This document shows positions 47,359 to 60,375 of a DNA stretch of 63,392 bases, piece after piece (within the stretch, counting starts at the first letter, position 1; each line of letters starts with the position of its first letter). The notes under the pieces are model-generated. The model had not been told where the DNA came from. It worked only from the letters and a program-made list of their open reading frames with translations, and ran no database searches. Source of the stretch: a bacterium (GTDB taxonomy: Bacteria; Zhuqueibacterota; Zhuqueibacteria; Zhuqueibacterales; Geothermadaptataceae). Position numbers and translations under genes: made by a program. The DNA lies in assembly GCA_024275575.1 (NCBI GenBank), contig JAJRYV010000116.1:1-63392 (forward strand), given 5' to 3'.

Positions 47359-48306
47359 ATGATAAAATTTGATTCACACCACTGGGCTGTCATTCTCGGC
47401 GGTTCCAGTGGATTTGGTCTGGCAACCGCGAAAAAGTTGAGCCGGCATGGCATGAATATCTGCATCATTCACCGCGATCGCCGCGGCGCGATGAAAAAAA
47501 TCGAACCCGAGTTTGAAAAAATCCGCGAAACCGCTGTGCAGCTCATCACCTGCAATACAAACGCACTGAGTGAAGCAGGGCGTGAGCAGGTTATCGGGCA
47601 ATTGAAAATGGCGATGGGCGAACAGGGCCGGGTACGCATGCTATTGCATTCCATCGCTTTCGGTAATTTAAAACTGATGGTGCCGGAGCCTGCTTCATTA
47701 CAGGAAAAGCACGAAAATTTGCTGCGAAAGCTCGGCGAAACGCTGGACTTGGAAGCATACGAATTACAGGCCCGCATCGACGCGCTTTTTGCCGCAGGAA
47801 ATGACGAACTCGCCGGCGTTGCGACGCCGCCTGAATACAGCAATACCGAGATGCTCGGCGACGAAGATTTCGCTCTGACGCTATACAGCATGGGCACCAG
47901 TCTGAGCAGTTGGGTACAGGCCATTTTTTCCGAAAAACTATTCGCGAAAGATGCCCGTATTTTCGGACTCACCAGCGAAGGCAATGAAATCGCCTGGAAA
48001 GGATATGCGGCTGTCGCAGCAGCGAAAACTGCGCTCGAGGCTGTTTCCCGCGCCATCGCCAAAGAATATGCGCCCTACGGCATTCGTTCGAACATCATTC
48101 AGGCCGGCGTTACCGACACACCGGCGCTGCGGCTCATCCCAGGCAATGCCCATCTGAAAGCAAGCGCACGCAGACGCAATCCGTTTTCCCGCCTCACGAC
48201 ACCGGAAGATGTTGCGAATTTTATTTTCCTCCTGTGTCAGGATGAAGCCGGCTGGGTGAACGGTAATATTATTCGCGTCGATGGAGGCGAGCATATCAGC
48301 GGCTGA
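47359..48306 (+). CDS. FabI/FabL-like SDR enoyl-ACP reductase
   Basis: About 315 aa. N-terminal nucleotide-binding loop LGGSSGFGLATA; LLHSIAFGNL, the counterpart of VHSIGFA in FabI; catalytic Y and K in YAAVAAAK (YX6K spacing as FabI Y156/K163); and the C-terminal NPFSRLTTPEDVANFIFLLC then VDGGEHISG. The residue equivalent to FabI Y146 is Ser. An insertion of about 50 residues (around 115-180) is longer than in housekeeping FabI. Expected to reduce trans-2-enoyl-ACP with NAD(P)H. GGAG lies 6 nt before ATG 47359. First gene of the cluster. Confidence 0.82.
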   Translation: MIKFDSHHWAVILGGSSGFGLATAKKLSRHGMNICIIHRDRRGAMKKIEPEFEKIRETAVQLITCNTNALSEAGREQVIGQLKMAMGEQGRVRMLLHSIAFGNLKLMVPEPASLQEKHENLLRKLGETLDLEAYELQARIDALFAAGNDELAGVATPPEYSNTEMLGDEDFALTLYSMGTSLSSWVQAIFSEKLFAKDARIFGLTSEGNEIAWKGYAAVAAAKTALEAVSRAIAKEYAPYGIRSNIIQAGVTDTPALRLIPGNAHLKASARRRNPFSRLTTPEDVANFIFLLCQDEAGWVNGNIIRVDGGEHISG

Positions 48307-48520
48307 AAACAGGCTCACTGAGTGGCGACCGAAATGAGCGGACACGGATCCGGGTTCACCCAATAAAAACCGAAATTAGCAGACAACAAAAACGAGAATA
48401 AAATGTCTTTATATATTTCAGAACAGCCTGAAAACCGGCAGCACAATTCTGTATTGAATAACCGGAACGCATTAATTCCTATAAATCAAAAATAGACACA
48501 AAAATAGTGAGTCAATCAAA

Positions 48521-49516
48521 ATGATATACATTCACGGCATCGGCCATTTCCATCCTGAAAACGTGATCGACAACGCTTTTCTCGAAAGCCTCGATATCGG
48601 CACCAACGATGACTGGATTATTGAACGTGTGGGAATTGTATCACGACGCACGGTTTTGCCGCTCGATTATATCCGCGAGACCCTTAATAAGGATTTTCGT
48701 GCGGCCTACGAAGCATCACTCTACTCCAATGCGCAAAGCGGCGCGTTGGCGGCGGAAAAAGCCATCACCGCGGCAGGCATCACCAAAGAGGATATCGGTT
48801 TGGTGATCGCCGGCGGCTGCACCCCGGAATATGCCACCCCCGCTGAAGCGGCCACTATCGCCTGCGAGCTCGGTATCGAGAAACCCTGCTACGATATCAA
48901 TTCCGCCTGCAGCTCTTTTGGCGCGCAAATCAACAACATTTCCAGTATGCGGCCGGAGGCGCTGCCGGACTATGTTTTGCTGGTCATCGTGGAAAACAGT
49001 ACACGTTCGGTCGACTATTCCGACCGAAATGGCGCTGTGCTCTGGGGCGACGGCACCTGCGCCGTCGTCATTTCGACCAAAGTGCCGGGGCCGGCACAAA
49101 TCAATTTCAGCACTTTCACCTCCAGCCCTGCAGGTTGGAGAAAGGTCATTGTACCCCGAATCGCCCATTTTTCACAGGAAGGGAAAACCGTACAAACTTT
49201 TGCCATCAAACGCACCATTCGCCTGTACCGTGAAATCGTTGAAAAATTTGCCGGCGAGTTTGAAAATATTTATTTCATATCACATCAGGCAAACCTGCGC
49301 ATGCTGGAATCAGTGTGCAACCGTTGTGAAATTGCCGATGAATTACATTTGTATAATGTTGATAAATTCGGCAATACCGGCGCTGCTGGTGCCCCGACGG
49401 TTTTGAACCAAAACTGGACCAAATTTAAACCCGGTGACGGGGTTGCACTCATCGTTGTTGGCGCCGGACTTTCGTGGTCGAGCATGTTAGTTGAATTTAA
49501 TGAGCTAAAAAAATAA
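48521..49516 (+). CDS. KAS III-like 3-oxoacyl-ACP synthase
   Basis: 331 aa thiolase-fold enzyme. Catalytic triad as in FabH: C130 (NSACSSFG), H255 (SHQANLRM) and N285 (FGNTGAAG). It starts IYIHGIGHFHPENVIDN and carries WIIERVGIVSRRT, so it belongs to the FabH/KAS III group, though divergent from housekeeping FabH. In this cluster it probably primes or condenses the special chain. It lies 214 bp after the reductase gene. Confidence 0.88.
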   Translation: MIYIHGIGHFHPENVIDNAFLESLDIGTNDDWIIERVGIVSRRTVLPLDYIRETLNKDFRAAYEASLYSNAQSGALAAEKAITAAGITKEDIGLVIAGGCTPEYATPAEAATIACELGIEKPCYDINSACSSFGAQINNISSMRPEALPDYVLLVIVENSTRSVDYSDRNGAVLWGDGTCAVVISTKVPGPAQINFSTFTSSPAGWRKVIVPRIAHFSQEGKTVQTFAIKRTIRLYREIVEKFAGEFENIYFISHQANLRMLESVCNRCEIADELHLYNVDKFGNTGAAGAPTVLNQNWTKFKPGDGVALIVVGAGLSWSSMLVEFNELKK

Positions 49517-49618
49517 TAGATACGGAGTGCAGACGCTTTATCAGCTGTGATTTTAATCATCGCCACATTTATATTGTATAAAGGCAATGCTCTTCAGGAA
49601 CTGAATGACAGGTCAAAA

Positions 49619-50212
49619 TTGAAATATAGCGAATTTTTACAACGCGATCATTATACCAAAGAAGAGCTCGTAGCCTTTGCCTATGGCCGCCTGGTGGATG
49701 ATCCTCCGGCAGAATTTTCCCGTCTGCCGGCGCCGCCTTTTCTGATGATGGACCGCATTATCGAGCTTGAAAGACGCGGCCGGCGCGGCCGCATGGTTGC
49801 CGAGCAGGATATTCAGCTCGACGCCTGGTTTTTTCAGTGTCATTTCGATGGCGATCCGGTACAGCCCGGCTGCCTCGGTGTCGATGCCGTCTGGCAGTTA
49901 TTGGGATTTTACTGCGTCTGCAGCGGCAGCATCGGCAATGGACGGGCGCTGGGCTGTAAAGAAATCGCCTTTGACGGCCAAATCCGGCCGCATAACGGCG
50001 TCGTTCGCTACGAAATCGAGGTGCGGCGCTACAGCGTTTTACAGGGCGGCAAAACCTCGCTGGTGATCGGCAACGGTCAGGTGTTTGTCGATGATGAGCA
50101 TATTTACACGATCAGCGATGCCAAAGTCGGTATTTTCACCGGCATCGCCTATGCCGATTACCCGGCAAAATCGAAAAACGCGATCGGCGGCATCATCAAA
50201 CGGGATATTTAA
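49619..50212 (+). CDS. fabA: FabA-type 3-hydroxyacyl-ACP dehydratase/isomerase
   Basis: About 197 aa. The E. coli FabA signature is plain: WFFQCHFDGDPVQPG, CLGVDAVWQLLGF, ALGCKEIAFDGQI. Catalytic H75 and D89 (spacing 14, as in E. coli H70/D84). FabA dehydrates and can isomerise the C10 trans-2 to cis-3 bond, opening a route to unsaturated chains. Start: TTG at 49619 has an AGG upstream and yields a family-sized N-terminus; the frame is open from GTG 49547. Its stop overlaps the FabZ start (TAATG). Confidence 0.9.
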   Translation: MKYSEFLQRDHYTKEELVAFAYGRLVDDPPAEFSRLPAPPFLMMDRIIELERRGRRGRMVAEQDIQLDAWFFQCHFDGDPVQPGCLGVDAVWQLLGFYCVCSGSIGNGRALGCKEIAFDGQIRPHNGVVRYEIEVRRYSVLQGGKTSLVIGNGQVFVDDEHIYTISDAKVGIFTGIAYADYPAKSKNAIGGIIKRDI

Positions 50213-50676
50213 TGGCATTCAGCAAAGAAGAAATACTGGCGCTGGTACCGCAGCAAAGTCCTTTTCGTTTCATCGATGAAATTCTCGAGCTCGATGATGA
50301 TGGCATCGTGGCGACTTATACTTTTAAAAAAGATGAATCGTTTTACGCCGGCCATTTCCCGGGCAATCCGATCACGCCGGGAGTCATCCTGCTGGAAACT
50401 ATGGCGCAAACCGGGGTTGTAGCTTTCGGTTTATTTCTCGCTTCGCAAACGATGTCGCTCGCAGAAATCCGCAAAACCCTGACGGTTTTCACCGAAGCCG
50501 AAGTTGAATTTACCGGCATGGTACGGCCGGGTGATAAAGTGATCATTAAAGCAAAAAAGAAATTCTTCCGCCGGTTAAAGCTCAAAGCCGAAGCCTCGAT
50601 CGAACTGGAAAACGGCGAGGTGGTTTGCAGCGGCAGTATCGCGGGAATAGGAGTGAAATCTGATGCAGGAAAATAG
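50212..50676 (+). CDS. fabZ: FabZ-type 3-hydroxyacyl-ACP dehydratase
   Basis: 154-aa hot-dog dehydratase. GHFPGNPITPGVILLETMAQ carries catalytic H48 and E62 (spacing as in FabZ). It begins with the family-typical IVPQQSPFRFIDEI-like segment (LVPQQSPFRFIDEILEL). It dehydrates 3-hydroxyacyl-ACP. Having FabA and FabZ side by side is unusual for a housekeeping set and suggests two dehydration modes. One-base overlap with fabA and 14-bp overlap with the KAS gene point to coupled translation. Confidence 0.9.
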   Translation: MAFSKEEILALVPQQSPFRFIDEILELDDDGIVATYTFKKDESFYAGHFPGNPITPGVILLETMAQTGVVAFGLFLASQTMSLAEIRKTLTVFTEAEVEFTGMVRPGDKVIIKAKKKFFRRLKLKAEASIELENGEVVCSGSIAGIGVKSDAGK

Positions 50677-51940
50677 AGTTGTAATTACCGGTTTGGGCAT
50701 CGTCGCACCCAACGGTAACGGGCTGGCCGCTTTTGAAAAAGCGCTGCGTGCCGGGAAATCCGGTATCCGTGCCGTACCGGCGCTTGCAGAATACAAATTT
50801 GGCTGCCAGGTTGGCGGCATACCACAGGGCATTAAAGCGTTAAGCGCTGAATACTTTACCGAAGAGCAGCTTCTCGCTATGAATTCAGGCATCACCTACG
50901 GTGGTATCGCTGCGATCGATGCCTGGCGCGACGCCGGTTTTGAAAAGCCGGCAGAAGACAGCGACAGCGTCGATTGGGACACCGGCGCCATCGTCGGTAC
51001 CGGCATCGGCGGCGTCGATACCACGGGTGAGCGTATCGTACCATTTACCGACGCCAAAAAAGTGCGGCGTCTCGGCAGCACGGCTGTCGAACAAGCCATG
51101 GCCAGCGGTATTTCGGCCAAAATCAGCGGATGGCTGGCGCTGGGAAATCAGGTGACCACCAATAGTAGCGCTTGCAGCACCGGCACCGAGGCGATCATCG
51201 ATTCCTACTACCGTATTCGCAACGGCCTGGCCAAACGCATGCTGGCCGGCGGTGCTGAAGGCAGCTCACCTTATTGCTGGGCTGGATTTGACGCCATGCG
51301 CGTTTTAAACCGCACAAAGAACGACGAACCGGAGAAAGCTTCGCGACCGATGAGCGCCTCGGCCGCCGGATTTATTCCGGGCTCAGGCGCTGGTATTATC
51401 ATGCTGGAAAGCCTGGAAAGCGCACAGGAGCGCGGGGCGAAAATATACGCAGAAATCATCGGCGGTGCGATCAATTGCGGCGGCCATCGCATGGGCGGCA
51501 GTATGACGGCACCCAATCCCACCGGCGTGCAGCGTTGCATTCGCAGCGCCCTGGCTGCTGCCGGCATTTCCGGCAGCGAGGTCGATGCCATCAACGGTCA
51601 TTTAACCGCGACTTTTGCCGATCCATACGAGATTAAAAACTGGCAACAAGCACTGCAAGTCGAACCCGAAAACCTGCCGTTGGTAAATTCAACAAAATCA
51701 TTGATCGGCCATGGGCTCGGCGCTGCCGGCGGTCTTGAAGCCGTCGCCTGTATTTTGCAAATAACCGGAGGATTTGTACACGGTTCGGTCAATTGCGAAG
51801 ACCTGCACCCGGATATCGAACCCTATAGTCGCAGTATCGTGCATGAAACAAAAGATATGGAAATCGATATTCTCGCTAAAGCCAGCTTCGGTTTCGGCGA
51901 TGTCAACGCTTGCACAATTTATAAAAAATGGCGTGCATAA
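50663..51940 (+). CDS. KAS I/II-like 3-oxoacyl-ACP synthase
   Basis: 425 aa. Active-site C171 in SSACSTGTEA, first histidine H313 in NGHLTATFADPYE (housekeeping enzymes have NAHGTSTP), K345 and H350 in STKSLIGHGLGAAG. The Leu in HLTAT departs from the usual HGT, so this is a divergent KAS, closer to secondary-metabolism enzymes. It performs chain extension with malonyl-ACP. Ribosome site ATAGGAG about 10 nt upstream; overlaps fabZ. Confidence 0.88.
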   Translation: MQENRVVITGLGIVAPNGNGLAAFEKALRAGKSGIRAVPALAEYKFGCQVGGIPQGIKALSAEYFTEEQLLAMNSGITYGGIAAIDAWRDAGFEKPAEDSDSVDWDTGAIVGTGIGGVDTTGERIVPFTDAKKVRRLGSTAVEQAMASGISAKISGWLALGNQVTTNSSACSTGTEAIIDSYYRIRNGLAKRMLAGGAEGSSPYCWAGFDAMRVLNRTKNDEPEKASRPMSASAAGFIPGSGAGIIMLESLESAQERGAKIYAEIIGGAINCGGHRMGGSMTAPNPTGVQRCIRSALAAAGISGSEVDAINGHLTATFADPYEIKNWQQALQVEPENLPLVNSTKSLIGHGLGAAGGLEAVACILQITGGFVHGSVNCEDLHPDIEPYSRSIVHETKDMEIDILAKASFGFGDVNACTIYKKWRA

Positions 51941-52010
51941 TTGAGCAATTTTTATTACCTTTAATAAAACAATTAATGCAATTTGAAATACCTTTTGAAA
52001 GGAGTGGTCA

Positions 52011-52256
52011 ATGACGCAAGAAGAAGTTTTGGGGAAAGTCGTCGAGATTTTGCAAAAATACAGCAAAGCCGGTCTGGCCGATGGCGATATCAATATGGAA
52101 ACAACTATTCTCGATGATTTAAAAGTCAATTCAGCACGTCTTGTCGATATCGTGCTCGATTTCGAAGACGCATTTGATATTGAAGTTGAAGATGACGATG
52201 CCGATAAAGTCCGTACAGTCGGTGATGGTGTTGAACTCATTTTAGCGAAAATTTAG
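52011..52256 (+). CDS. Acyl carrier protein (cluster-specific)
   Basis: 81 aa four-helix ACP. The phosphopantetheine serine is S41 in LKVNSARLVDIVLDFED, where the usual DSL reads NSA. The body is acidic (FDIEVEDDDADKV), as in ACPs. AAGGAG precedes the ATG. Its place between the KAS and the PlsC genes argues that the chain made here is carried on this ACP and passed on to the acyltransferase. Confidence 0.88.
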   Translation: MTQEEVLGKVVEILQKYSKAGLADGDINMETTILDDLKVNSARLVDIVLDFEDAFDIEVEDDDADKVRTVGDGVELILAKI

Positions 52257-52262
52257 GAAATT

Positions 52263-53036
52263 ATGGAAAAAGAAAAGAAGAAGTTGTTGAGCAGAAAAGA
52301 CCGTTTTTTTCTTTTTACGCAGCGATTTGTGGGTTGGGCGACACTGCCTTTCTGGAATAATACTGCAGTATTTCTCATGCGTTTCTGGGCGAAATACCAT
52401 GTGCCTGACCTGCGTGAAATTCGCAAACAGTTCAAAAAGGTGCTCAAGGAAGCCGATGGGCCGATCATCGTCTGTGCAAATCATCTGACGAAAATCGATT
52501 CCGTACTTATCAACTGGAGCCTTGCTTCATGGTGGACGTATATGAAAAGCTATCGCAGCTTTTCCTGGAATATGCCCGAGCGTGCCAATTTCTACAAAAA
52601 TCCCTTTTTACGCTCCATCTGCTACCTCGCGAGCTGCATTCCTGTCGATCGCGGTGGTGACAGAGACGTGGTGAAGCGCTCCATCGATAAAATCACCCAC
52701 ATGATGCATAAAGGGCATACGGTGACGATTTTCCCGGAAGGCAAACGCAGTCGCATCGGTAAAATCGATGCTGAGGATTATTCTTATGGTGTCGGCCGCC
52801 TGGTGAAAGCCGTGCAGGACTGCAAAGTACTCTGCATTTATTTACGCGGCGAAGCGCAGGAAACCTTCAGCAATATTCCCAAACGCGGGCAGAAGTTCTA
52901 CCTTGAGATGAAACTGATCAAACCGGAAAGCTCATTCAAAGGAGTGCGTGCGACGAAAGATATCGCCGCCCAGATCATCGATCAATTAACCGAAATGGAA
53001 GAACGGTATTTTTCTCTTCTGCGCCAACCGGCATAA
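52263..53036 (+). CDS. PlsC-like 1-acylglycerol-3-phosphate acyltransferase
   Basis: 257 aa. NHLTKID (H74xxxxD79) and FPEGKRS (residues 157-163) are the catalytic and glycerol-phosphate-binding motifs of the PlsC/LPLAT family. A hydrophobic/aromatic N-terminal region would sit on the membrane. AGGA before the ATG, 6 bp after the ACP stop. Its position suggests it transfers the cluster's acyl chain to a lysolipid or other polar head. Terminator follows at 53055. Confidence 0.88.
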   Translation: MEKEKKKLLSRKDRFFLFTQRFVGWATLPFWNNTAVFLMRFWAKYHVPDLREIRKQFKKVLKEADGPIIVCANHLTKIDSVLINWSLASWWTYMKSYRSFSWNMPERANFYKNPFLRSICYLASCIPVDRGGDRDVVKRSIDKITHMMHKGHTVTIFPEGKRSRIGKIDAEDYSYGVGRLVKAVQDCKVLCIYLRGEAQETFSNIPKRGQKFYLEMKLIKPESSFKGVRATKDIAAQIIDQLTEMEERYFSLLRQPA

Positions 53037-53054
53037 TTTCGTATAATTTAGACT

Positions 53055-53082
53055 AAAAAGCGGGTTCACAATCCGCTTTTTC
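53055..53082 (+). terminator. Intrinsic terminator after plsC-like gene
   Basis: Perfect 9-bp stem AAAAAGCGG (53055-53063) with CCGCTTTTT (53073-53081), 9-nt loop, T-rich tail 'ctttt'. Marks the end of the main cluster transcript. Confidence 0.87.
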
Positions 53083-53394
53083 TTTTAGAACCCGTTTGCA
53101 TTTACATGCCCTGAACCCGAAATTTGCACACCAATCTACACGCAAAATCACCACTCTGAAAATATAATCAAAAGACAGGGCTTCAGCCGGGCGCATTTTA
53201 TAGCTAAACAGGGTTCGACTCTTCTCTTTTCATCCCCGGATCGATGATATTTTGGCCATAAAACTCAATTTTTTCGATAAAATTGAAGAGGGTTCCTATA
53301 GCATGACTGCGTTCACTATTTTGTATCCCGGCCTGGGGATGCGTTCATTTGACTGCAATCCGGTAAAATCGCCTAAAAATCAGGTAGAGAAATC
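53083..53394. other. Intergenic region
   Basis: About 310 bp between the terminator and the hexapeptide-repeat gene. No gene, repeat or hairpin recognised. A promoter for the next gene is expected. Confidence 0.35.
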
Positions 53395-54231
53395 ATGAAA
53401 AGAGAATCTGCAAAAACAGAGAAAAACGGAAAATACGAAAATGTCGATGCAACTTCATCGAGCCGCAGCGGTTTTGCCGGATTGCTGGAAACCGCTCTGC
53501 GACGTTTTCGCATCGGTACCTACCTCATCGCGCTGATTCCGGTCTATTTCCTCACTATTCTGGCCATGAGCATCTCGCTTATTCCCGGCCTGTTTTTAGT
53601 GAAATATGCACTGATACATTTCAGTGATTTGCCGGAAATTCTGTATCTTGGTGTAATTGCCTTCAGTATCATCAGCGCCTATTTTCTCTATGGCTTCACC
53701 CTTATTTTCGTGGTGCCGCTTTTCAATTTTCTCATGCCGTTTCGCCTGAAACCGTTTCGCGGTGGGTTTTATTCGCTGGCCTCAGTACCGTGGTATATTC
53801 ATAATGCATTTACCTACATCGTGCGTTACACTTTCCTGGAATTCATCACACCAACACCTCTTAACATCTTGTTTTTTCGGATGATGGGCATGAAAATAGG
53901 TAAAGGTGCGCACATCAACACCACCAATATTTCCGATCCTGGTCTCATTGAAATTGAGGACAAAGTGACCATCGGCGGATCGGTGCATATTCTGGCGCAT
54001 TATGCAGCGAAAGGTTATCTGATCGTCAAACCTGTAAAAATTCACAAAGGCGCAACAATCGGCCTGAAAGCCACGATCATGGGCGATGTTGAAATCGGTG
54101 AAAATGCCACCATCGCACCGCATGAAGCAATTCTGCCGAAATCGCGCATACCTGCAGGGCGCAAGCCTTTTATCAACGAGGAGCAGGAACGCCTCAACAA
54201 GCTGAAGCAGCCATCACAGGATTTTGTCTGA
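53395..54231 (+). CDS. Membrane protein with left-handed beta-helix (hexapeptide acyltransferase-like) domain
   Basis: 278 aa. Four hydrophobic segments in the first half (TYLIALIPVYFLTILAMS, SLIPGLFLVKYAL, LYLGVIAFSIISAYFLYG, and LIFVVPLFNFLMPF). The second half (residues about 160-262) is a hexapeptide-repeat helix (GMKIGKGAHINTTNI, IEDKVTIGGSVHI, VKIHKGATIGLKATIMG, VEIGENATIAPHEAI). It resembles membrane acyltransferase-like proteins linked to non-ribosomal or lipid pathways. It may finish or position the product of the fatty-acid-type cluster; a separate transcript is likely because a terminator precedes it. Confidence 0.75.
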   Translation: MKRESAKTEKNGKYENVDATSSSRSGFAGLLETALRRFRIGTYLIALIPVYFLTILAMSISLIPGLFLVKYALIHFSDLPEILYLGVIAFSIISAYFLYGFTLIFVVPLFNFLMPFRLKPFRGGFYSLASVPWYIHNAFTYIVRYTFLEFITPTPLNILFFRMMGMKIGKGAHINTTNISDPGLIEIEDKVTIGGSVHILAHYAAKGYLIVKPVKIHKGATIGLKATIMGDVEIGENATIAPHEAILPKSRIPAGRKPFINEEQERLNKLKQPSQDFV

Positions 54232-55136: not shown

Positions 55137-56591
55137 ATGAAATACAGCGAAATAAAAAATTTTATTGCAGGCCGGTTTGTCGAGACTAATGCGGCAAAAA
55201 TGGAGGTCATCAGCCCACTCAACGGCGAGAAAATATCAAGCGTACCGCTGTCTAAAAAAGCAGATCTCGACCGCGCAGTAGAAGCTGCCAAAGAAGCCTG
55301 GCCGGCCTGGGCAGGCATGACCATCAAAGAGCGGGTACAGATTTTTTACCGCTACAAAACTTTGTTGGAACAAAATCTCGAAGAACTGGCCACAATCGTG
55401 CGCGAAGAAAACGGTAAAACCACGGATGAAGCGATCGCCGAAGTGGCCAAAAGCGCTGAGCTCACCGAATTCGCCTGTTCTCTGCCGCAATTAGTGCAGG
55501 GTGAAATCCTCGAGGTAAGCCGCGGCGTTGAATGCCGCGTTGAATACAAACCTGTGGGCATCGTCGCTTCTATCGCGCCTTTTAATTTTCCCCACATGGT
55601 GCCGCACTGGACCCTGCCCAATGCTCTCGCTCTCGGCAACTGCATGATTCTCAAACCCTCGGAACTCGTTCCCCTCACGGCTATTCGCATCGCTGAAATG
55701 CTCAAAGAAGCCGGTTTGCCCGACGGCGTTTTTAACATCGTCAACGGGGCGCAGGAGATCGTCGAGGGGATTTGCGATCATCCTGAAATTCCTGCGGTCT
55801 CGTTTGTCGGCTCCACTAAAGTTGCCAAAATCGTTTATAAAAGAGCCACTTCCAATCTCAAACGCTGTACTGCCCTCGGCGGCGCCAAAAATCACTTGAT
55901 TGTGCTGCCCGACGCCAACCCGGAAATGACCGCCAAAGACGCCGCTGCCTCCATGTCCGGTTGCGCCGGACAGCGGTGCATGGCTTCTTCCGCGATGGTG
56001 GCGGTGGGCGAGGTTGATCATATCATCGAAAAACTCTGTGATGAAGCGCGTAAAATCGTACCCGGGCAAAATTTGGGTTCGGTCATTTCGCAAGCCGCAA
56101 AAGAACGCATCGAAGGTTACATCACCGCGGCGGAAAACGCCGGAGCGAAAGTGCTCGTCGACGGCCGCAACGCCGGTGTACAAGGATGCGAAAACGGATT
56201 TTATGTCGGCCCGACGGTGATCGATAATGTCACCCCGGACATGCCCATCGCCAAAGAGGAAGTCTTCGGCCCGGTGCTGGTGATCATGCGGGCAAAAACC
56301 CTCGATGAAGCCATCGCCATCGAAAACAGCTCCAATTATGGCAACGCAGCCGGCGTCTACACCCAGAGCGGCGGTTTGGCGCGGGAAGTTATGGAGCGTG
56401 CCGGCGCCGGCATGATCGGCGTCAATATCGGCGTGCCGGTGCCGCGTGAGCCTTTCTCCTTTGCCGGTTGGAATGAATCTAAATTCGGCGTTAACGACAT
56501 CACCGGAAAAAGCTCCATCGCTTTCTGGACGCAACTGAAAAAGACTTCGACTAAGTGGAACCCTGAAGCCGGGATTAATTGGATGAGTTGA
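55137..56591 (+). CDS. mmsA: CoA-acylating (methyl)malonate-semialdehyde dehydrogenase
   Basis: About 484 aa aldehyde dehydrogenase superfamily. NAD site FVGSTKVAKIVYKRA; catalytic C281 in CAGQRCMASS; ALGGAKNHLIVLPDA is the MmsA-specific form. The usual catalytic glutamate of other ALDHs is absent, as in this CoA-dependent branch. Reaction: (methyl)malonate semialdehyde plus CoA and NAD+ to acetyl- or propionyl-CoA. In this cluster it would oxidise malonate semialdehyde formed from beta-alanine. AGGAG 8 nt before ATG 55137; a longer frame from 55017 lacks support. Confidence 0.92.
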   Translation: MKYSEIKNFIAGRFVETNAAKMEVISPLNGEKISSVPLSKKADLDRAVEAAKEAWPAWAGMTIKERVQIFYRYKTLLEQNLEELATIVREENGKTTDEAIAEVAKSAELTEFACSLPQLVQGEILEVSRGVECRVEYKPVGIVASIAPFNFPHMVPHWTLPNALALGNCMILKPSELVPLTAIRIAEMLKEAGLPDGVFNIVNGAQEIVEGICDHPEIPAVSFVGSTKVAKIVYKRATSNLKRCTALGGAKNHLIVLPDANPEMTAKDAAASMSGCAGQRCMASSAMVAVGEVDHIIEKLCDEARKIVPGQNLGSVISQAAKERIEGYITAAENAGAKVLVDGRNAGVQGCENGFYVGPTVIDNVTPDMPIAKEEVFGPVLVIMRAKTLDEAIAIENSSNYGNAAGVYTQSGGLAREVMERAGAGMIGVNIGVPVPREPFSFAGWNESKFGVNDITGKSSIAFWTQLKKTSTKWNPEAGINWMS

Positions 56592-56658
56592 ATTCCCTAT
56601 AAAGCTTTTGGCTGTTAGCTATTGGCTTTTAGTTAAAAATAAAAGTAACTGTTAATTC

Positions 56659-56727
56659 ATATCCGCTTGGCGGGATTTTCTTCTTGCTCGTCAATCACAG
56701 AATTCCGTCGGGGATTCCTTGATTGGG
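56659..56727 (-). repeat. Dispersed repeat A, copy 3 (partial, inverted)
   Basis: 69 bp matching the reverse complement of 22742-22851: 'tatccgcttggcgggatttt', then 'ttgctcgtcaa', 'agaattccgtc' and 'ggggattccttg', with a 12-bp deletion. It ends exactly where similarity to a DUF3800 gene begins, so it marks a rearrangement junction. Confidence 0.75.
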
Positions 56728-56987
56728 ATAAAGGAACGGACTATCTCAGCCCAAAACGGTTTCAAGATGTACTGACCAGTAAGCAATTAAAAGTTAAATC
56801 AAAGGCAAACAACATCTCTGGTCTGCAACTGGCTGATCTTATTGCACATCCAAGCCGTAATGAAATTCTCATGGAAAACGATCTATTGACAGGAAAGATT
56901 GCACCCTTTGCGGAAAAAATAATTCACCTTTTGCAAGACAAATATTACCAAGAAGATAGTAGAATCTTTGGAAAGAAGTTTATATAA
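56728..56987 (+). pseudogene. DUF3800 family protein, C-terminal fragment
   Basis: The frame encodes TDYLSPKRFQDVLTSKQL, then NNISGLQLADLIAHPSRNEI, which is the C-terminal part of DUF3800 proteins (the GLQLADL motif). The N-terminal two-thirds, including the catalytic-looking DES start, is missing and replaced by repeat A sequence. An open frame from 56667 runs through the repeat into this fragment but is unlikely to be a natural protein. Confidence 0.7.
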
Positions 56988-56993
56988 AAAAAG

Positions 56994-57007
56994 GCCCGAA
57001 AGGGCCC
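56994..57007 (-). terminator. Terminator-like hairpin (minus direction)
   Basis: GGCCC (56994-56998), loop GAAA, GGGCC (57003-57007); read on the minus strand it is followed by a run of seven T (56987-56993). A second palindrome, gatggcttaagccatc, lies at 57009-57024. No minus-strand gene is seen to its right, so it may be a leftover of the rearranged region. Confidence 0.5.
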
Positions 57008-57024
57008 GATGGCTTAAGCCATCC

Positions 57025-57220
57025 ACATCCAGATATCCGGATTAGTTAAACATATAAAATCAAGCAGTCAAAGTCAATTAATTATTTACAGATACTACTG
57101 ATCAATTTCTTCGTCGAAACCTTTGCGTTTTTGCGTCTCTGTGTGAGAATTATTCAAACCTGTGATTTATACCCAGGATTTTCAACCGCATGAAACACCG
57201 AACGAGGAGCGAGGAGCCGT
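57025..57220. other. Leader region of the permease-dihydropyrimidinase genes
   Basis: Just under 200 bp. Contains the 'ctttgcgtttttgcgtctct...gtgagaattat' repeat fragment (57119-57155). The permease ATG is preceded by 'gaggagcgaggag', which gives a strong ribosome binding site. Confidence 0.4.
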
Positions 57221-58975
57221 ATGAAAGATGAGATTACTGCAGTAAACGAACAATTTTTAGATTCACGCTTGTATAGCGAGCATTTGGCGCCAGTGCCGCA
57301 CACAAAGCGTACCTGGAATTTGTGGAACCTCGCCGCCATCTGGATCGGCATGGCGGTGTGCATTCCCACCTATATTCTCGCTTCTTATATGATCAAATCC
57401 GGGCTGAGCTGGCAAGCCTCGCTCATCATCATCTGCCTCGCCAACCTGATCATCACCGTGCCGATGGTTTTGAACGGCCATGCCGGGGTGAAATACGGCA
57501 TTCCTTTTCCGGTGCTGGGGCGGGCTTCTTTTGGAATCAATGGAATTCACATCGCCGCTATTCTGCGCGCTATCGTCGCTTGCGGCTGGTTTGGTGTGCA
57601 AACGTGGATTGGCGGGCTGGCTTTTTATGCCATCTGGAATGCCCTCACCGGCAGCGATGGCTCCCTGGGACTGGATGTGGGAAAATTCATCGGCTTTGGT
57701 CTGTTCTGGCTGGTTAATCTCTATTTTATCTGGCACGGCACCGAAAGCATAAAATGGCTGGAAAGTTTTGCCGCCCCCATCCTTGTCATCATCGGGTTTT
57801 TGTTGATTGTTTGGGGCAGTTACGGCGCCGGCGGTTTTGCAACTGTACTGGAGCAGGGAAAACAACTTAAAAACCCAACGGCAGTTTTGTCGAACCACGA
57901 TGGTATTTTGAAAGTGCAGTTAACCCCGTTGCAGGATGTGCAGGGGAATTTTAAAGCTGCTGAATACCAACTCACCATTCCCACCCTTTCGGGTGAAACG
58001 CAACAATTGGGCTGGAACCAGCTCAACCCGGAAGGTTTGATCTTGCCCATTACTGACGCAAACCTTGCACGCGAAGCCCTGCTCAACCGCGAAAAAGCGA
58101 TCGATGTGCAGTTTCGCAAAACCCTGGGAAACACAACGATTGAATCAAGCGTTGTCAGTCTCACTTTTCCGCAGAAAACAGCCGCCGGCCCGATGGTGGA
58201 AATATGGGGCTACCTGCTCTGGCTCACGGCGATGGTTGGATTTTGGGCGACCATGTCTTTGAGTATTGCCGATATTACCCGCTATGCCCGCACCCAAAAA
58301 GAGCAGGTACTCGGCCAGTTTATCGGCCTGCCGGGAACCATGGTTCTCTATTCATTCATCGGTATTTTCGTCACGTTTGCAGCGCTAGCCAACTTCGACG
58401 ATATCCTGATTTCTCAGGACGCGCCCTGGGACCCGGTTTCCCTGCTTGCCCGGTTTGACAGCCCGACTGTGGTTGTCATCTCGCAGATTTTTATGATTAT
58501 TGCCACCTTGAGCACAAACATAGCGGCCAACGTCATCGCGCCGGCCAATGCTTTTGCCAACCTTTTCCCGAAGAAAATCGATTTCAAACGCGGTGGTCTG
58601 ATCACCGGCGTCATCGGCATCATCATCTGTCCGTGGTGGCTGCTCGATGAAATCAGTGGTATTCTGATTTTCGTCAGCGGTCTGCTGGGGCCGGTTTTGG
58701 GTATCCTGCTCTGTGATTATTTTGTCATTCGCAAAAAAGAGCTCAACCTGCCGGCGCTTTACCAAACCGATGGAGAATATGCTTACAAAGCCGGTTTTAA
58801 TCCTGCGGCGATAATCGCACTGATCGTTGGTATTTTATCAGCTCTGATCGGCTACTGGATTCCGGCGCTGAGCTTTTTTTACAGCCTTTCCTGGTTCACC
58901 GGTTTTCTGATTTCTTTTGTCTTGTATTATTTCATTTTCACTACATTGAGTAAAAAACCTGTACCTGCTTTATAA
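57221..58975 (+). CDS. NCS1-family nucleobase/hydantoin permease with an extra soluble insertion
   Basis: 584 aa. NCS1 core: N-terminal RTWNLWNLAAIWIGMAVCIPTY, helix-3 motif GIPFPVLGRASFG, substrate-site region VACGWFGVQTWIGG, and the GFWATMSLSIADITRYARTQ motif. Family members are near 480-500 aa; the excess is residues about 212-322, inserted between two membrane helices. The insertion reads as beta-rich soluble sequence (ILKVQLTPLQDVQGNFKAAE, IESSVVSLTFPQ). It likely imports uracil, hydantoin or allantoin, feeding the enzymes next door. Dihydropyrimidinase starts 17 bp downstream. Confidence 0.88.
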   Translation: MKDEITAVNEQFLDSRLYSEHLAPVPHTKRTWNLWNLAAIWIGMAVCIPTYILASYMIKSGLSWQASLIIICLANLIITVPMVLNGHAGVKYGIPFPVLGRASFGINGIHIAAILRAIVACGWFGVQTWIGGLAFYAIWNALTGSDGSLGLDVGKFIGFGLFWLVNLYFIWHGTESIKWLESFAAPILVIIGFLLIVWGSYGAGGFATVLEQGKQLKNPTAVLSNHDGILKVQLTPLQDVQGNFKAAEYQLTIPTLSGETQQLGWNQLNPEGLILPITDANLAREALLNREKAIDVQFRKTLGNTTIESSVVSLTFPQKTAAGPMVEIWGYLLWLTAMVGFWATMSLSIADITRYARTQKEQVLGQFIGLPGTMVLYSFIGIFVTFAALANFDDILISQDAPWDPVSLLARFDSPTVVVISQIFMIIATLSTNIAANVIAPANAFANLFPKKIDFKRGGLITGVIGIIICPWWLLDEISGILIFVSGLLGPVLGILLCDYFVIRKKELNLPALYQTDGEYAYKAGFNPAAIIALIVGILSALIGYWIPALSFFYSLSWFTGFLISFVLYYFIFTTLSKKPVPAL

Positions 58976-58992
58976 ATTTCAAGGAGTAATCC

Positions 58993-60375
58993 ATGTCAGT
59001 TTTAATAAAAAACGGACGAATTGTAACCGCCGCCGCCGATTATATCGCTGATATTTTTATAGAGGGAGAAACCATCTCCACGATCGGCAAAGATTTAAAA
59101 GTATCTGCAGACAAAACCATCGACGCCGGCGGCAAGCTGGTTTTCCCCGGCGGCATCGATCCGCACACTCATCTCGACCTGCCGTTCATGGGTACGTATT
59201 CAAGCGATAATTTTGAGACCGGAACCCGGGCTGCGCTTTTTGGCGGCACCACCTCGGTCATCGATTTTGTCATCCAGAGCCAGGGCAAACCGATGCAGGC
59301 CGCCGTGGAAGAATGGCATAAAAAAGCCGACGGCAACGCTTTCGGCGATTACGGTTTTCACATTGCGGTGACCGACTTCAATCCCGATTCATGCGCTGAA
59401 ATAAAGGATTTGATCGAATACGGCATCACCTCATTCAAGGTTTTTATGGCCTACAAAGGCGCGCTGATGATCGATGACGAACAGATGATCGGCATCATGA
59501 ACGAAGTGCGCAAGCACAACGGCCTGGTTTCGGTGCACGCCACCAACGGTGATATGATCGATTTTCTCGTCAAAAAACATCGGGCAGAAGGCAAACTGGA
59601 ACCGCTGTACCACTACCTGTCGCAACCGGAAATCACCGAGATCGAAGCCTCCGGTCGTTTTATCGATATCGCCAATTACACCGGTGTGGCCTGCCTCATC
59701 GTGCACATGGCCAGCGGCGGCGCATTGGACAAAGTGCGCGAAGCGACAAAACGCAACCAGCGTATTTTTGTCGAGACCTGCCCGCAGTACTTGCTGTTAG
59801 ACGCCTCGGTTTATGAAAAAGAAAATTTTGAAGCAGCAAAATGGGTGATGTCGCCGCCGATACGCGAGAAAAAAGATCAGGCGACTTTGTGGGCCGGATT
59901 GAATCAGGGATTGGTCAATTTCGTCGGCACCGACCATTGTCCGTTTTTTATGAAGCAGAAAAGAATGGGCGAAAAAGATTTCACCAAAATTCCCAACGGC
60001 GCGCCGGGCATTGAGCACCGCATCGAACTGCTGTACAGCGAGGGTGTGCGCAAGGGACGCATTAGTTTAAACAAATTTGTCGAAATCACCTCCACCAATG
60101 CGGCGAAAGTGTTCGGCATGTTTCCGCGCAAAGGTTGCATCGCTATCGGCGCCGATGCGGATCTCATTATTTTTGACCCCGACGAAAAGCACACGATTTC
60201 TGCAAAAACACACCACCACAATTGCGATTATTCCAGCTACGAGGGCTGGCAAGTGACCGGCAAATGTAAAACCGTACTCATGCGCGGCCAGGTGGCCATC
60301 GAAAATGATGAAATAAAAATCGACAAAGGTTACGGGCAGTTTGTCAAACGCGGGCCATCGTCGCTGGTGATATAA
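58993..60375 (+). CDS. hydA: Dihydropyrimidinase (D-hydantoinase family)
   Basis: 460 aa amidohydrolase. Metal ligands: H58 and H60 (DPHTHLDL), carboxylated K155 (FMAYKG), H182 (SVHATNGD), H238 (IVHMASGG) and D314 (GTDHCPF), all as in dihydropyrimidinases. It opens dihydrouracil or hydantoin rings to N-carbamoyl-beta-amino acids. AAGGAG 7 nt before ATG. Directly follows the permease. The metal set is complete and length normal, so it is expected to be active. Confidence 0.96.
   Translation: MSVLIKNGRIVTAAADYIADIFIEGETISTIGKDLKVSADKTIDAGGKLVFPGGIDPHTHLDLPFMGTYSSDNFETGTRAALFGGTTSVIDFVIQSQGKPMQAAVEEWHKKADGNAFGDYGFHIAVTDFNPDSCAEIKDLIEYGITSFKVFMAYKGALMIDDEQMIGIMNEVRKHNGLVSVHATNGDMIDFLVKKHRAEGKLEPLYHYLSQPEITEIEASGRFIDIANYTGVACLIVHMASGGALDKVREATKRNQRIFVETCPQYLLLDASVYEKENFEAAKWVMSPPIREKKDQATLWAGLNQGLVNFVGTDHCPFFMKQKRMGEKDFTKIPNGAPGIEHRIELLYSEGVRKGRISLNKFVEITSTNAAKVFGMFPRKGCIAIGADADLIIFDPDEKHTISAKTHHHNCDYSSYEGWQVTGKCKTVLMRGQVAIENDEIKIDKGYGQFVKRGPSSLVI

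Follow-up and report, generated by a model that had tools for sequence, protein, structure and literature searches.

What does a bacterium that already encodes a housekeeping fatty acid synthase do with a second, compact set of fatty-acid genes that brings its own acyl carrier protein (ACP) and acyltransferase? The question is raised by seven same-strand genes at 47359-53036 of GenBank contig JAJRYV010000116.1 (assembly GCA_024275575.1; Zhuqueibacterota, Geothermadaptataceae), a stretch of 63,392 nucleotides that was analysed as a whole, is called the window here, and is contig C95 of a 4.96-Mb genome in 144 contigs. In order, the genes encode an enoyl reductase, a ketoacyl-ACP synthase III (KAS III), the dehydratases FabA and FabZ, a KAS II, an ACP and a PlsC-type acyltransferase. 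We consider it probable (about 0.68, or two chances in three) that the block represents a complete parallel type II fatty acid synthase (FAS), insulated from the housekeeping set by a charge swap and feeding the PlsC-type acyltransferase. The wider proposal, that this is a widespread and undescribed orthogonal FAS II, insulated by the same swap and making a membrane acyl chain of no assigned pathway in at least 11 phyla, is offered tentatively and at somewhat less than even odds.

A full housekeeping set exists elsewhere in the genome: plsX-fabH-fabD-fabG-acpP-fabF-rnc on contig C57, an LpxC-FabZ fusion on C77, and FabI with SYIG and Y-x6-K on C116 (these genes were located family by family, with names partly read by eye from translations). 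Since, moreover, the cluster KAS II shares no more than 31-33% identity with the FabF copies of this genome and with E. coli FabF and FabB, the block is a second system. This agrees with a preliminary description of the locus, which had proposed a dedicated FAS beside the housekeeping one, with an ACP of its own, and had allowed that the block might instead be the only KAS, ACP and FabI set in the genome, an objection that the housekeeping genes remove. In the KAS phylogeny that the same description called for, the cluster KAS proteins form one separate clade with support 100 and a stem of 0.77 changes per site, in a quick tree made without bootstrap, for which the program warns of long branches where the outgroup joins.

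The insulation is suggested by the recognition helix of the private ACP. E. coli AcpP and the genome's own housekeeping ACP have Asp-Ser-Leu-Asp at positions 35 to 38, and the cluster ACPs have Asn at 35 (85/86), Ser at 36 (86/86), Ala or Ser at 37 (86/86) and Arg at 38 (85/86, one Lys), so that the NSA motif pointed out earlier is real. The private ACP is 23% identical to E. coli AcpP, and among the conserved changes of the cluster ACPs only Asp38 to Arg reverses a charge. In the cluster KAS II, too, a single conserved change reverses a charge, namely Lys65 to Glu or Asp (81 of 88, Glu68 in the window), and the positions of FabF Arg68 and Lys69 are hydrophobic or small. A previous study of the AcpP-FabF structure found that Lys65, Arg68 and Lys69 contact AcpP Glu13, Gln14, Asp35 and Asp38, and that FabF K65E gave weaker crosslinking (PMC7138838). 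We infer that the reciprocal swap would make the cluster ACP-KAS pair orthogonal to the housekeeping pair and thereby block cross-talk. The HLTAT motif of the KAS, also singled out in the preliminary description, is invariant at H, L and both T (88/88) and has A in 82 and G in 6 at its fourth position, partly by construction, as NGHLTATF was itself a search pattern along with AKASFGFG; the ACP 38 and KAS 65 sites lie outside both patterns. The KAS II carries GFGDVN, and Cys163, His303 and His340 are conserved.

The swap goes beyond the preliminary description, as do the breadth of distribution and a phosphopantetheinyl transferase (PPTase). The latter, a protein of 247 aa encoded on contig C84, is unlinked to the block in the window's genome; it matches 76 cluster PPTases, the best being that of family f4 (38% identical), and the genome's other PPTase has three marginal matches. 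In f4 the PPTase adjoins PlsC; in members of the window's family it lies apart from the block. Of the 82 phylum genomes, the 11 with a cluster KAS all have a C84-type PPTase and the 71 others have none. For genes that are unlinked, such joint occurrence argues strongly that the PPTase works with the block, though the 11 genomes, belonging to two families only, represent few independent events. In genome G030 the cluster-side PPTase is split into two frames and a full-length copy is present on another contig (C2:32769-33448 and C111:6623-7333), possibly a snapshot of the PPTase becoming unlinked.

Within the phylum, the cluster KAS was found in those 11 genomes at 72-85% identity over nearly full length and was absent at that level in the other 71. 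FabA-type and second FabZ copies are bimodal across the phylum genomes in the same way as KAS, and for PF07977 the cluster-bearing genomes have extra matches at the cluster and nearly all others a single housekeeping match. The same-genus genome G069 carries the cluster, with an 85% identical match, on a contig of 565,018 bases, and QQUE01000012.1, a Calditrichaeota metagenome-assembled genome (MAG), also matches at 85%. At least 559 relatives turned up in a scan of species genomes. Examination covered the best 80; apart from three that repeat genomes already counted, the 77 further loci span at least 11 phyla among these best matches, with the gene order matching in most. By record title the groups are Calditrichota/KSB1, Omnitrophota, Spirochaetota, Myxococcota, Thermodesulfobacteriota, Bdellovibrionota, Pseudomonadota, Gemmatimonadota, Acidobacteriota, Armatimonadota, Bipolaricaulota and Fraserbacteria, where single assignments may be wrong, the examined loci being mostly MAGs. 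The same gene order had been proposed as something to look for in relatives, and the seven genes are in identical order in all those with enough flank; because this order is also kept in most loci of other phyla, the block is beyond chance. The cluster KAS had no match in 72,556 plasmids, and a plasmid-borne origin was rejected on that ground.

Comparison of these loci gives the full form of the operon, with the consensus order FabD - reductase - KAS III - FabA - FabG - FabZ - KAS II - ACP - PlsC - PPTase. In a clustering of flanking open reading frames, the only families recurring in more than nine loci were FAS-type proteins, the PPTase and an acyl-CoA dehydrogenase. FabD and FabG, reported as absent in the preliminary description, are indeed missing from the window's copy, but this is a feature of the lineage only, since other phyla have both genes within the operon; to judge by the sequences they were lost, or never joined, in the window's lineage. 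The cultured Marinicella gelatinilytica S6413 (L054) has the block together with FabD and PPTase. L096 is rearranged, with ACP, PlsC and PPTase upstream of the reductase, not downstream of KAS II. The reductase slot is occupied by the reductase alone in 49 loci and by an acyl-CoA dehydrogenase-like protein in 21, mostly of Syntrophales and relatives (L063, L066-L068, L071, L075-L077, L081, L084, L087, L090, L094, L095, L101, L103, L106, L108, L111, L117 and L120). The dehydrogenase-like protein retains its catalytic Glu (IYEG) and sits exactly at the place of the short-chain dehydrogenase/reductase (SDR). Two loci have both, with the dehydrogenase about 8 kb off, and two changes on the tree suffice for the exchange.

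In the window, the features of the block and its surroundings are as follows.

47359..48306, + strand: enoyl reductase, SDR/FabL-like, 315 aa (profile, Foldseek, AlphaFold2 (AF2) model, residue conservation)
48521..49516, + strand: KAS III (FabH-like), putative chain starter (Pfam ACP_syn_III and _C)
49619..50212, + strand: FabA-type 3-hydroxyacyl-ACP dehydratase, potential isomerase, TTG start (NCBIfam PRK05174, His70/Asp84)
50212..50676, + strand: FabZ-type dehydratase, private copy (H54/E68 conservation)
50663..51940, + strand: KAS II of a distinct clade (motifs, tree, intact Cys-His-His triad)
52011..52256, + strand: private ACP (helix II N40-S41-A42-R43, which are N35 S36 A37 R38 in E. 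coli numbering)
52263..53036, + strand: PlsC-type (PF01553) membrane acyltransferase (Pfam, AF2, Foldseek, motifs)
53055..53085, + strand: intrinsic terminator, block end (stem AAAAAGCGG...CCGCTTTTT, -15.8 kcal/mol, z -3.7)
53395..54231, + strand: membrane hexapeptide protein, neighbour outside the system (3' of the terminator, a neighbour in the genus only)

All eight open reading frames have the positions and families that had been given for them, and the tight packing noted earlier is borne out by overlaps of 1 base between FabA and FabZ and 14 bases between FabZ and KAS II, with a gap of 6 between ACP and PlsC. The FabA start is most likely the TTG at 49619, from which the N-terminus lines up with those of relatives. 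The terminator had been taken to close the block after the hexapeptide gene. It is real, spotted by eye and then folded (the consensus scan, whose promoter and terminator counts are at chance level, did not list it), but it lies directly after PlsC. Since it precedes the hexapeptide gene and that gene is a conserved neighbour only in the window's own genus, as are the outer flanks, the block runs from 47359 to 53036, not to 54231, and the hexapeptide protein was rejected as a component.

Every catalytic residue of the cluster enzymes is retained, and all block proteins are single-function by Pfam. The reductase, whose AF2 model has a pLDDT of 93, contains an insert of about 45 residues within aa 101-163, helical by prediction, and has Ser at the FabI Tyr146 position; both the insert and the missing Tyr146 had been recorded. 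The second had been read as an oddity and is unremarkable, because the nearest solved relative by profile and by fold, B. subtilis FabL (profile E 2e-28; Foldseek top match 3oid), also lacks this Tyr, to judge by its sequence. Tyr156 and Lys163 are present in 52/52 and Y-x6-K is retained. With 106 bits against the cut-off of 328, the protein falls below the NCBIfam FabL equivalog model; from its sequence we class it as a FabL relative, not a FabL equivalog. In KAS III the Cys-His-Asn triad (C112/H244/N274) is conserved together with W32, R36 and R151, and the FabH Phe87 position is Thr in the window and mostly Thr, Ile, Ser, Cys or Leu in the family. In other FabH enzymes, replacement of Phe87 by Thr is associated with primers larger than acetyl. 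In the cluster copies of FabD and FabG, Ser92/His201 and Ser138/Tyr151/Lys155, respectively, are conserved.

FabA, with His70 and Asp84 in 77/77 and 46% identity to E. coli FabA, scores above the cut-off of PRK05174 (206 bits, cut-off 124) and below that of the stricter TIGR01749 (165, cut-off 238), and unsaturation through this enzyme is plausible by its sequence. FabZ has H54 and E68 in 86/86, and its sole conserved charge reversal, E. coli Arg100 to Glu or Asp, is also in 86/86. This residue may be an ACP contact or a neighbour of the active site; it is not described as an ACP contact in a published FabZ study. Charge reversals were further seen in FabA (Arg128 and Arg153 to Glu) and in the reductase, and these might likewise be swaps at ACP contacts. 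The PlsC-type protein scores 52.5 bits for PF01553 against the Pfam cut-off of 23 and carries the motifs NHLTKID (HX4D) and FPEGKRSR (FPEGxR), whose motif residues are invariant; its AF2 model (pLDDT 91.5) resembles GPAT1 and PatA in Foldseek, at only moderate TM-scores. Such a last step suggests a glycerolipid acceptor.

Several points weigh against an insulated synthase that feeds a glycerolipid. The swap arose once, in the ancestor of the clade, and shows no repeated covariation; by a crude estimate, the probability that both reversals would land by chance on the patch where the proteins face each other is about 0.01. In seven paired loci KAS 65 is other than Glu or Asp while ACP 38 remains basic. 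The second contact region is conventional, with basic Arg127, Lys128 and Arg206 opposite acidic Glu47, Glu48 and Asp56, and since this region of the interface is unchanged the pair may be only partly insulated. No matching charge reversal is seen in FabD or FabG, and the window's system has to borrow both. The PlsC-type protein reaches 35 bits with the acylglycerol-phosphate acyltransferase (AGPAT) model TIGR00530, far below the cut-off of 103, which makes a glycerolipid only a candidate acceptor.

The block might instead be the organism's anaerobic route to unsaturated fatty acids, like E. coli FabA/FabB, and feed ordinary phospholipids alongside the housekeeping FAS. Its FabA, with an intact His/Asp site as in E. 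coli, is the genome's sole FabA-type protein in genome searches, and no PF00487 desaturase was detected in the window's genome (G000). However, the E. coli pathway uses the housekeeping AcpP, FabA and FabB requiring no private ACP, KAS III, FabZ, reductase, PPTase or dedicated acyltransferase, and the block's ACP departs exactly at the recognition helix. Moreover, FabA is missing from several clusters (L052, L053, L094, L095 and L117), and a PF00487 desaturase is present in 6/6 cluster-bearing f4 genomes, for which reason the cluster is not a plain desaturase substitute; we regard this route as unlikely, though the least unlikely of the alternatives. An AcpXL-like system, whose very long acyl chain would go to lipid A or a different envelope lipid, is less probable again. 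The AcpXL-FabZXL-FabF2XL-FabF1XL-AdhXL-LpxXL cluster of Rhizobiales, which supplies the very-long-chain acid of lipid A, follows the same logic of a dedicated ACP, condensing enzymes, dehydratase and acyltransferase beside the housekeeping FAS (PMC11901934). The Thr of KAS III would suit larger primers, and the genome encodes the LpxC-FabZ fusion and, by eye, LpxA. Against this, the conserved block has no alcohol dehydrogenase, its acyltransferase is of the PF01553 (PlsC) and not the LpxL/HtrB type, and it has one KAS II rather than two; it adds KAS III, FabA and the FabL-like reductase, with FabD, FabG and PPTase in the full form, and a far wider taxonomic range.

Of about the same low probability, or slightly lower, is a dissociated polyunsaturated-acid or polyene synthase, in which FabA, FabZ and KAS II would build several double bonds as the fused-domain Pfa synthases do. 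The activities of the block, namely ketosynthase (KS), malonyl-acyltransferase (MAT), ACP, ketoreductase (KR), FabA-type dehydratase (DH), second DH, enoyl reductase, PPTase and acyltransferase, mirror the Pfa list (PMC3098273), and an accessory PPTase and a secondary lipid role are shared with the Pfa or secondary lipid synthases of the Shulse and Allen types. Those are multidomain KS-MAT-ACP(n)-KR proteins with a chain-length factor, whereas the block consists of discrete monofunctional proteins, has no such factor, and has a FabF-like KAS with only 31 bits to PfaA; the enoyl reductase, and the loss of FabA in some clusters, point to mostly saturated or monounsaturated chains. The ladderane/polyunsaturated hydrocarbon (PUHC) clusters of type II FAS genes in Kuenenia and Desulfotalea resemble the block in that their KAS/ACP set is divergent and additional to the housekeeping FAS, but those clusters encode radical SAM enzymes and proteins like phytoene desaturase, and FabA is absent from Kuenenia (PMC2649909); neither family is among those recurring in more than nine loci of the conserved block. 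Identity with the ladderane, Pfa or AcpXL type was thus rejected in each case on defining features. A literature search limited to openly licensed papers, which surfaced these three kinds of cluster, found no described system with this gene set, in line with the preliminary description and as no proof of novelty.

For the insulated parallel synthase that we favour, we propose the following course. The dedicated PPTase of contig C84 would activate the private ACP, and FabD would load malonate, presumably the housekeeping FabD in the window's genome and the cluster copy elsewhere. KAS III would start the chain from an acyl-CoA; elongation and reduction would then proceed through KAS II, FabG (presumably the housekeeping enzyme here), FabZ or FabA, and the FabL-like reductase, and FabA could in principle leave a cis double bond. 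Finally, the PlsC-type enzyme would take the completed chain off the private ACP and pass it to a glycerolipid acceptor. The changes ACP Asp38 to Arg and the facing KAS Lys65 to Glu would provide at least part of the insulation.

Other genes of the window and genome are recorded here as side observations. Downstream in the window (55137-60375), aldehyde dehydrogenase, nucleobase permease-like and dihydropyrimidinase-like genes resemble by eye a pyrimidine-degradation set and are unrelated to the block. A second stand-alone FabF lies on C142 (L041:5711-6955), outside any recognisable FAS cluster. Separate from the block is also a Pfa/polyketide synthase (PKS)-like cluster on C137 (L042:4863-19378), with acyl-CoA dehydrogenase, KS-AT, KS_C-ACPx3-KR-DH and biotin carboxylase-type proteins, and since it adds to the housekeeping FAS and the block, the genome has three acyl-chain systems.

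In kind, the block is best explained as an insulated secondary FAS II of the private-ACP type, with its own carrier protein and acyltransferase. It offers a natural, broadly conserved candidate for an orthogonal ACP-ketosynthase pair with a specific proposed cause, ACP residue 38 and KAS residue 65, which bears on FAS and PKS biology and on the engineering question of how two FASs with similar parts are kept from mixing in one cell. Its dedicated PPTase co-occurs perfectly with the cluster in the phylum sampled, and a lipid product of no assigned pathway would be expected in many environmental lineages. In the window's organism, whose genome has no other FabA-type protein or detected desaturase, the block may explain the source of unsaturated or unusual acyl chains.

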